From: Nitrospirota bacterium
GTDB lineage: Bacteria; Nitrospirota; Thermodesulfovibrionia; Thermodesulfovibrionales; UBA6898
Direction of reading: 5' to 3'
DNA length: 64,000 nt
Assembly (NCBI GenBank): GCA_021811105.1
Contig: JAJZPM010000011.1
Span: 1 to 64,000, forward strand
Below are positions 46,455-51,215 of the stretch, in pieces (the first letter of the stretch is position 1; each line of letters starts with the position of its first letter). The position numbers and the translations under genes were made by a program. Under the pieces are notes generated by a model, which searched no databases, was not told the DNA's origin, and was given only the letters and a program-made list of their open reading frames with translations.

Positions 46455-46483
46455 TTGACAAAAAAAAAAGTTCTTGATAGTGT
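46455..46483 (+). promoter_or_regulatory. Candidate sigma70-type promoter for HU gene
   Basis: TTGACA, 17-nt spacer, TAGTGT. Confidence 0.45.
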
Positions 46484-46535
46484 TTAACACAGATTGTCTG
46501 CAGACACCACTACCAAAGGAAAGGGGGGAAAGAGA

Positions 46536-46811
46536 ATGACGAAGACGGAACTTATCGACAAAATTGCATCAGGTGCCGGTCTCAGCAAGGCTGATGCAAC
46601 GCGTGCCTTTGATTCGACTCTTGACGCGGTCAAGGCAGCGCTGAAGAAGGGGCAGAAGGTCACGATCGTCGGTTTCGGCACTTTTTCGGTTACGAAGAGG
46701 AAGGCCAGGAAAGGGCGCAACCCGAGGACCGGTCAGGTTATCAATATACCTGCCGCCAAGACTCCCAAGTTCACCGCCGGCAAGGCATTAAAAGACGCAG
46801 TAAAGAAATAA
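46536..46811 (+). CDS. HU family DNA-binding protein
   Basis: [89 protein letters not shown]. Confidence 0.96.
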
Positions 46812-49133: not shown

Positions 49134-49275
49134 GTGGTTAACCACGGAGACACTGAGTCATGGAGTTGAAAAATAGGGGAAAAGGCCGGAATAAGCCGCT
49201 CACCTCAGTGGAGATATATAATACTTCCTACCTCCCTGTTTGTTTTCTCAGTGTCTCTGTGCCTCTGTGGTAAAT
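49134..49275. repeat. Phrase hairpin of the widespread ACCACGGAGACACTGAG / CTCAGTGTCTCTGTGCCTCTGTGGT type
   Basis: ggttaaccacggagacactgag ... ctcagtgtctctgtgcctctgtggtaaa. Confidence 0.8.
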
Positions 49276-49304: not shown

Positions 49305-49595
49305 TCATTTCTTGAACAGGTCGTTCAGTTTTTTCAGCGCATCTTCTCTTGCCTTATCAGAAGAAGGAGACCCGCCTTTGCGGAAGACAAAGTAGTCGCA
49401 GAAGTTCGCCTTGTCCCGGCTCCTCTGGAATTCGGCCTTCGGCTCGAGGCATTTGTTGTGGGCCGTCTCCGAGTAGAACCTGCAGTTCAGGCATATATGC
49501 AGGTCACCGCCGCATTCGGGGCATATTGACTTGCGGGAAAAGTACTTGTCTGCCGCGACTTCTTTTCCGCAGAGTGCACAAACCTTCATATTCAC
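49305..49595 (-). CDS. Small zinc-ribbon-like protein
   Basis: CALCGKEVAADKYFSRKSICPECGGDLHICLNCRFYS...C...CDYF Cys pairs. Confidence 0.75.
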   Translation of the reverse strand: MNMKVCALCGKEVAADKYFSRKSICPECGGDLHICLNCRFYSETAHNKCLEPKAEFQRSRDKANFCDYFVFRKGGSPSSDKAREDALKKLNDLFKK

Positions 49596-49772: not shown

Positions 49773-49883
49773 GTATGATTCTTCCACGCGTTCACCGAGG
49801 GGTTACCCCTCGCTATTTCGTAATTGACAGCCATCTTTAGGTGTGATATTTTGAAAAAAGAATTCTCAAAGAGGAGGTCCGAT

Positions 49884-49961
49884 ATGCCCTGCAAGTCAAA
49901 AGGTCCGTGTGGTACCGGAAAGAAGACGGCTGCAAAGGCCCCGAAGAAGACGAAGAAATAG
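49884..49961 (+). CDS. 25-aa Lys/Cys-containing small protein (not in ORF track)
   Basis: MPCKSKGPCGTGKKTAAKAPKKTKK*; strong SD gaggagg and a terminator immediately downstream. Confidence 0.65.
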   Translation: MPCKSKGPCGTGKKTAAKAPKKTKK

Positions 49962-49983
49962 CTGCTTCGGGTCTCCCGGTTTT

Positions 49984-50011
49984 GAGGATGGCTTCGGCCA
50001 TCCTTTTTTTT
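49984..50011 (+). terminator. Rho-independent terminator
   Basis: gaggatggcttcggccatcctttttttt. Confidence 0.85.
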
Positions 50012-50075
50012 GCTGCTCCGCGGGCTTTTCCGCGGGCCCCTCTTTAGGTGGTCGTCTCTGTGTTAATATGTAGCC

Positions 50076-51215
50076 ATGTTCGAGAAGGAACTGAATGAGC
50101 TCCGGAAAAATGACCTCCTCCGGCAGTTTGTATCGAGGGGTTCTCCGCAGGGGCCTGTAATTACTATCTCGGGGAAGAGATACATCAACTTTTCCTCGAA
50201 CGATTACCTCGGTCTCGCCGGCAGCCCCGAGTTACTCAGGGCTGCAGAGACGGCCGGGAGAAGGTTCGGCTTTGGCGCCGGTGCCGCGAGGCTCCTTGCG
50301 GGAGGAAGCATCCTGCACGAAAGACTCGAAAAGGCTGTCGCGGCCTTCAAGATGACCGAAGCGGCGTTGTTGCTCAACTCGGGGTATACAGCTAATACGG
50401 CGGTCATCCCGGCTATTGCGCCGGAGGGCAGCGCCATATTCAGCGACGAACTGAACCATGCGAGCATCATCGACGGCTGCAGGCTCAGCAGGGCGAAGGT
50501 GCTGGTCTACCGGCATAAAAATATTGGGCACCTCGAAGGACTCATGAAGAAAGAGCCGGCGTGGAGGAAGGTTGTCGTCACCGATTCAGTCTTCAGCATG
50601 GACGGAGATATTGCGCCACTGCCGGACCTCTGCACGGTCTCACGCAAACATGGTGCGGTCCTCTACCTGGACGAGGCCCACGCCACCGGCGTGCTCGGAA
50701 AAGGGAAGGGTTCGCTCGCGCATTTCGGATTGGACCAGGAACCATGGATTATCCAGATGGGGACGTTTTCGAAGGCCCTCGGCTCTTTAGGTGCGTTCGT
50801 CGCGGGGACGCGGGATATGATCGGATGGCTGACAAATGCGGCGCGGGGCTTTATCTTCTCGACGGCGCTTCCTGCCCCGGTTGTCGCTGCCTCGATCAGG
50901 GCGCTCTCTATACTCGAAAAGCGTCCCGGACTTGTGAAAAGACTTCTGGAGAACACGCATAGGACCGCGGAGGGACTTAAGACTACCGGCTATGATCCGG
51001 GAGATGCCGAAACACCGGTCCTGGCTATCAAACAGCGGAGCGTCCGGGAGGCGCTTGCCCTGTCCGCTTTTTTATGGAAGAAAGGGGTCTATGCCCCGGC
51101 GATAAGGCCCCCGACCGTGAAGGAGCCCCGGATCAGGGTCACCGTTACTGCGGCGCATACCGCGGAGCATATACAGACGCTTATTCGCGCGATGCAGAAA
51201 TACGGGAAGCTCTGA
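50076..51215 (+). CDS. bioF: 8-amino-7-oxononanoate synthase (alpha-oxoamine synthase family)
   Basis: YINFSSNDYLGLAGSPELLRAAETAGRRFGFGAGAARLLAGGSILHERLE...YLDEAHATGVLGKGKGS...GTFSKALGSLGAFVAG. Confidence 0.92.
   Translation: MFEKELNELRKNDLLRQFVSRGSPQGPVITISGKRYINFSSNDYLGLAGSPELLRAAETAGRRFGFGAGAARLLAGGSILHERLEKAVAAFKMTEAALLLNSGYTANTAVIPAIAPEGSAIFSDELNHASIIDGCRLSRAKVLVYRHKNIGHLEGLMKKEPAWRKVVVTDSVFSMDGDIAPLPDLCTVSRKHGAVLYLDEAHATGVLGKGKGSLAHFGLDQEPWIIQMGTFSKALGSLGAFVAGTRDMIGWLTNAARGFIFSTALPAPVVAASIRALSILEKRPGLVKRLLENTHRTAEGLKTTGYDPGDAETPVLAIKQRSVREALALSAFLWKKGVYAPAIRPPTVKEPRIRVTVTAAHTAEHIQTLIRAMQKYGKL

Follow-up and report, generated by a model that had tools for sequence, protein, structure and literature searches.

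The 64,000-nucleotide stretch of Nitrospirota DNA analysed here (the window) contains a stand-alone gene for a lysine-rich protein of only 25 residues, MPCKSKGPCGTGKKTAAKAPKKTKK, which belongs to a conserved family found in the class Thermodesulfovibrionia of the phylum, is under purifying selection at the protein level, and has its own promoter, Shine-Dalgarno (SD) sequence and intrinsic terminator (Table 1). We regard it as nearly certain that the open reading frame (ORF) is a real coding gene. The preliminary description of this DNA had proposed a deliberate monocistronic gene and had listed the ORF, its cysteine pair, the SD and the terminator; the sequence is as described at verified coordinates and the proposal is now strongly supported, although the promoter was absent from that description. 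The protein consists of a head, residues 1–12, with Cys3 and Cys9 (C-x5-C), and a K/A/T/P tail, residues 13–25, and has a net charge of about +11.

Table 1. Features of the microprotein gene and its flanks, in window coordinates
Feature	Position	Strand	Evidence and remarks
Divergent neighbour, 96-aa Cys-rich zinc-ribbon-like protein	49305..49595	-	In 14 compared loci; context only, outside the cassette
Near-consensus sigma-70 promoter: -35 TTGACA, 17-nt spacer ending in extended -10 TGA, -10 TATTTT	49824..49852	+	Sequence; genome pattern count; homologue promoters
Shine-Dalgarno AGGAGG, 6 nt 5' of ATG	49872..49877	+	Sequence; homologues also have a strong SD
Microprotein gene, 25 aa	49884..49961	+	ATG at 49884, TAG at 49959-49961; ORF translation, homologues, pN/pS
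Intrinsic terminator, GAGGATGGCTTCGGCCATCCTTTTTTTT	49984..50011	+	Hairpin and T-run; hairpin terminator 3' of most homologues, often of unrelated sequence
Downstream neighbour, bioF-like (8-amino-7-oxononanoate synthase), independent gene	50076..51215	+	Context; microprotein gene occurs without bioF elsewhere

Expression signals

The terminator lies about 22 nt past the stop codon and comprises a nine-pair hairpin (49984–50005) followed by a T tract ending near 50011. Within the window this is the sole ATG-initiated ORF of 15–40 codons to have a GGAGG-type SD as well as a strong terminator close by, and no short ORF with both signals was present in 20 Markov-simulated windows, so that their coincidence at one short ORF is not attributable to chance. 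The site corresponds to no known RNA family in Rfam.

The promoter looks to be among the strongest in the genome and belongs to a rare class, TTGACA-N14-TGnTATnnT, with five sites in the 3.94-Mb genome and none in the reversed control; at least three of the other four sites have plausible ORFs directly 3'. We note that an HU-like gene in the window (46494–46811) has a promoter at 46455–46483 that departs from this strong class at a single position. Among the homologues described below, TTGACA is present upstream of 44 of the 56 testable copies, compared with 12 of 484 ordinary ORFs at least 200 aa long, and the full extended promoter, TTGACA-N14-TGnTAnnnT, precedes 42 of the 56 copies but only two of the 484 controls; the key used to find the homologues did not include the promoter. 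A strong SD is present in nearly all copies and a near-ideal promoter with a terminator in most, and the terminator sequence differs between groups while the protein is retained. To judge from these signals, the microprotein gene is probably very highly expressed.

Homologues and their distribution

A lack of conservation, which the preliminary description had named as part of what would refute its proposal, is not what we observe. A search with the 25-residue sequence identified homologues in 19 of 61 genomes (its own and relatives) at E≤10, with a best relative at 8e-8, and the homologues in relatives have the same length and the same ends. A profile search across the phylum added others, and the pattern M-A-C-K-x-K...C-G..K-K, scanned against 84,980 species, returned 23 stretches, 21 of them in Nitrospirota. 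A further key, in which a strong SD is followed by M-x-C-K (AGGAGGN{2,9}ATGNCNTGYAAR), was run over the genomes of the class and gave matches in 62 of 231, compared with about a dozen control matches.

The family as assembled comprises 54 distinct proteins of 22–68 aa (mostly 22–31 aa), with members in at least 56 of the 231 class genomes and in eight family-level groups, the loci being counted by eye. Using anonymous labels for these groups, members are present in 21 of 27 genomes of the window's own family (f1) and 10 of 16 in f2, with nine in f13, eight in f11, four in f5, two in f4, and one each in f9 and f17, the last of which is in another order; these counts are lower bounds, as individual searches overlook known members, and they include divergent subtypes whose homology is recognised through the common head, tail and promoter without a significant pairwise score. 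The subtypes include MSCKPGHKGAPCGTKKTAKKKKK and the longer MACKPGHKAKTKCAAKKKTAKKKTATKKTVKKKTAKKKKK in f2, MACKPGHKEPKKTAKKTAAKKKKK, which lacks the second cysteine, in f11, MACKPSQKGSPCGTKKTAPKKKK in f5, MACKGKCGTGKTKGKEADKGTKKK in f4, and a 68-aa form beginning MACKTCGTKKAAKKPATKRVAKKATAKKAAKKPAAKK in one f13 genome. Two genomes without a match in the earlier profile search, G005 and G012, have the divergent members MACKTKGGSCCTTKKTAPKPKAKPEKTSKK and MACKSKSSKCKTAKKSSKKTASKSSKKTKKK at the expected place upstream of bioF, and because these were located by synteny with bioF and not by their own sequence, they constitute an independent check of the gene.

Elsewhere in the phylum the searches revealed no member, and the pattern matches there proved on inspection to be unrelated (an Rrf2-like regulator, a PtsI-like protein and others). 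One of the two non-Nitrospirota matches in the species scan, L064, is not a like protein. The other (L053:3151–3204, MACKGKSKGGCGGGKKK) is a 17-aa ORF on a Bacteroidaceae contig, where it follows phage-like genes, and is probably unrelated; a second look-alike (L099:1761–1811, MACKKKSKGCGGGKKK) lies between tRNA-Asn and tRNA-Ala genes in a phage contig with identified terminase and portal genes. These look-alikes of 16–17 aa are perhaps related to each other and probably convergent with the Nitrospirota family. An apparent second copy in G017 has the same synteny as the first and probably derives from a second strain in the bin, and we do not count it as a paralogue. Some genomes of the window's family, such as G021 and G023, yielded no member, suggesting that the gene may not be essential, within the limits set by fragmented assemblies and search sensitivity.

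Selection and constant features

Comparison of synonymous and nonsynonymous changes, a check proposed at the outset, gives a pooled pN/pS of 0.21 for 29 distinct coding sequences (0.13 in the head and 0.29 in the tail), a value biased downward by the choice of homologues on protein similarity; the other two frames give 1.05 and 3.84. Mismatches affect a fraction of 0.235 of first, 0.12 of second and 0.523 of third codon positions. Selection thus acts on the amino-acid sequence of the microprotein.

All 54 distinct proteins end with KK and start with M-[A/S/P/T]-C-K, the constancy of the start being partly by construction, as the search key required C-K at residues 3–4 and an NCN codon at residue 2. 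Residue 2 is always small, and the initiating methionine is therefore probably removed. Lysine accounts for 29–52% of residues in the individual proteins, and the tails consist of 52% K, 21% A, 16% T and 5% P; 44 of the 54 proteins contain no acidic residue (D/E), and the same number contain none of F, W, Y, L, I or V. Length varies from 22 to 68 aa while the composition stays constant. The cysteines are more variable: there are one to three per member, the loop between them differs in length, four members lack the second cysteine, and in members of this kind, which are CKPGH variants, a histidine is present (C-x3-H). Neither the 25-mer nor typical members match any entry in Pfam or NCBIfam.

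Genomic context

The f1 copies are usually flanked by bioF and by the divergent gene for the 96-aa Cys-rich protein, which itself has no Pfam match. At other loci it adjoins ilvN-like, argF-like, secretin, acyl-CoA-synthetase-like, nifS-like or CHASE2-like genes (named by eye from translations), often facing them, and in two f4 genomes (L124:1414–1590 and L125:1411–1590) the homologue and a tRNA-Ala gene ending 28–31 nt ahead of its start have the same orientation and apparently a common transcript. The copies that lack the full extended promoter include these tRNA-Ala-adjacent ones, which are probably transcribed together with the tRNA.

Two side observations concern the flanks. There is no SD at 50050–50080 in front of bioF, and a TAATAT-like -10 sequence lies a few bases 5' of its ATG with similar spacing in L068 and L069; the bioF transcript may, on this pattern, be leaderless. 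On the other side, an imperfect inverted repeat at 49136–49275, ttaaccacggagacactgag ... cagtgtctctgtgcctctgtggt, surrounds about 100 bases and is REP/MITE-like; its core has one match in the window, and a similar piece, tctctgtgttctctgtggtta, is located just 5' of the homologue in L025.

The arrangement in the window, in which a Lys-codon-rich ORF is directly followed by a terminator and then, 114 nt on and on the same strand, by bioF, is that of a leader peptide with an attenuator, where Lys codons would be sensed through ribosome stalling. We reject a bioF leader as having a negligible probability, because the context varies and the next gene at many homologous loci (ilvN-like, argF-like, acyl-CoA-synthetase-like or secretin) is on the opposite strand and convergent; moreover, cysteine and glycine positions are kept as well as the Lys codons, and terminators of different groups do not share a conserved sequence. 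As the cassette is autonomous and its surroundings change from locus to locus, a general leader or attenuator role is ruled out, and likewise no partner for guilt by association emerges. A strong promoter separated from a terminator by about 150 nt would also suit a small regulatory RNA in which the ORF is incidental, but substitutions concentrate at codon position 3 with the low pN/pS given above, length changes are in-frame only, the terminators diverge, and the predicted fold is no stabler than shuffled sequences (z -0.92). A noncoding RNA as sole function is rejected by the codon statistics, and we give the incidental-ORF reading practically no credence.

Possible functions

We suggest, tentatively and with somewhat less than even confidence, that the microproteins are polycationic, disordered, nucleic-acid-binding proteins whose short cysteine-containing head forms a disulfide or contacts a metal. 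The K/A/T/P-rich tail, probably disordered, would bind DNA or RNA electrostatically, in the manner of histone-H1-like tails, while the head thiols would provide a second function through a disulfide, as a loop or a dimer, or through a shared metal site, which would allow the peptide to form cross-links or to act as a switch that responds to redox or metal state. A tail that changes in sequence and length and yet holds its composition fits charge-driven binding of a polyanion. Among the candidates, nucleic acid is the most plentiful, although rRNA, polyphosphate or some other polyanion would be an equally suitable partner for such a polycation. Because the second cysteine (or histidine) is at a variable distance, a disulfide loop, a dimer or a shared metal site is favoured over a rigid zinc knuckle. 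The C-x5-C noted in the preliminary description is present in the 25-mer, but it is not a fixed motif of the family; a strict two-cysteine site in the head is excluded by the four members without the second cysteine, and a strict zinc site is unlikely. Of the nucleic-acid or metal binding proposed there, the first is thus plausible and a strict metal site is less so. A more specific version, in which this is a minimal chromatin peptide, a top-expressed polycation of 22–68 residues resembling an H1 tail that serves as a lineage-wide nucleoid or ribonucleoprotein (RNP) component and whose Cys-Lys head controls the bridging of nucleic acids in response to redox state or metal, is speculative and in our view rather unlikely.

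The constancy of the head also invites another interpretation, namely that the protein is a thiol or metal buffer, an abundant cytosolic peptide whose N-terminal cysteine, with a second cysteine or histidine, binds a soft metal or persulfide and whose lysines confer solubility. The strong promoter, the invariant Cys3-Lys4 (54 of 54, partly imposed by the search key), the tighter constraint on the head than on any other part, and the histidine of the CKPGH variants all accord with such a buffer. It leaves the strict composition of the tail unexplained, however, nearly all members have only one or two cysteines at variable spacing, and no metal-resistance genes recur beside the gene in the loci compared; we therefore think a buffer would be a fairly unlikely outcome. 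A ribosome- or RNA-associated basic peptide, like bTHX of the Thermus 30S subunit, would fit the small size, the charge, the lack of hydrophobic residues and the tRNA-Ala linkage in the two f4 genomes, but this is unlikely for a family restricted to one class with no locus seen in a ribosomal operon. Still less probable is a peptide that binds polyphosphate or organises granules, working like AlgP of Pseudomonas aeruginosa, whose K/P/A-rich H1-like C-terminus is needed for polyphosphate granule positioning (PMC9239181): the tail chemistry is similar and polyphosphate is a general polyanion, but the microprotein has no further domain and no polyphosphate gene was recognised alongside it in an unsystematic reading of the loci. 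Finally, small size and positive charge are also features of secreted or membrane-active cationic (antimicrobial) peptides and of type I toxins, an identity that we consider very improbable here, since the proteins have neither a signal sequence nor any amphipathic or hydrophobic stretch, and no antitoxin or export gene recurs in the loci compared; the hydrophobic transmembrane stretch of a type I toxin is missing, with 44 of the 54 members having no F, W, Y, L, I or V beyond Met1.

Significance and detectability

The family is thus a conserved one with a highly standardised strong-expression cassette that has gone unrecognised by Pfam and NCBIfam, at a length of 25 aa that is below usual annotation limits. 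Ordinary proteomics is expected to be nearly blind to the protein, as lysine makes up more than a third of its residues and trypsin leaves almost no usable peptide. The metaproteomic study of Nbg-4 (Candidatus Sulfobium) used tryptic digestion (PMC5812927), and absence of the microprotein from that metaproteome would mean little, because its tryptic pieces are mostly too short to identify. The cassette itself, a strong SD with M-x-C-K, is a useful search key, which recovered members where profile searches failed. Should the protein prove abundant, it could rank among the principal constituents of the nucleoid or of RNPs in these Nitrospirota, which are largely uncultured and include sulfate reducers; were the chromatin-peptide version true, a lineage-wide component would have been invisible both to annotation length limits and to tryptic proteomics.

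Comparison with known systems

The family's motif strings are absent from the papers searched, which revealed no described family, distribution, promoter or function. The GMSC small-protein catalogue predicts ORFs down to 30 nt (PMC11364881), and catalogues of this type may hold single family sequences as unnamed entries. Zinc ribbons and knuckles have four Cys/His ligands at fixed spacing, whereas these proteins have one to three cysteines, variably spaced, including the four one-cysteine members.

The closest compositional likeness is to the bacterial H1-like proteins (Hc1/HC2 of Chlamydia, the Burkholderiales H1-like proteins and AlgP), with which the family shares a K/A/P/T-rich polycationic tail of low complexity and almost no acidic residues. 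The histone-H1-like tail proposed in the preliminary description is therefore borne out as a family-wide composition, expanded in the 68-aa member, but the profile matches are weak: that member scores 22.3 bits (1.6e-4) against PF07382 (HC2), below the cut-off of 40, and 20.2 bits (5.6e-4) against NF038053 (hist_H1_lk_Burk), below the cut-off of 80, and the HC2 match reflects low-complexity composition. In contrast to the H1-like proteins, the microproteins are mostly of 22–31 aa, have no other domain, carry a conserved N-terminal M-x-C-K head and are known from one Nitrospirota class only, and the 25-mer matches no profile. At about 26 aa, bTHX from the 30S subunit of Thermus is comparable to the microproteins in its general description, with a similar size, strong basicity and a tiny gene, but the Nitrospirota proteins differ from it in having a cysteine-containing head and a basic tail made almost purely of lysine, not arginine.
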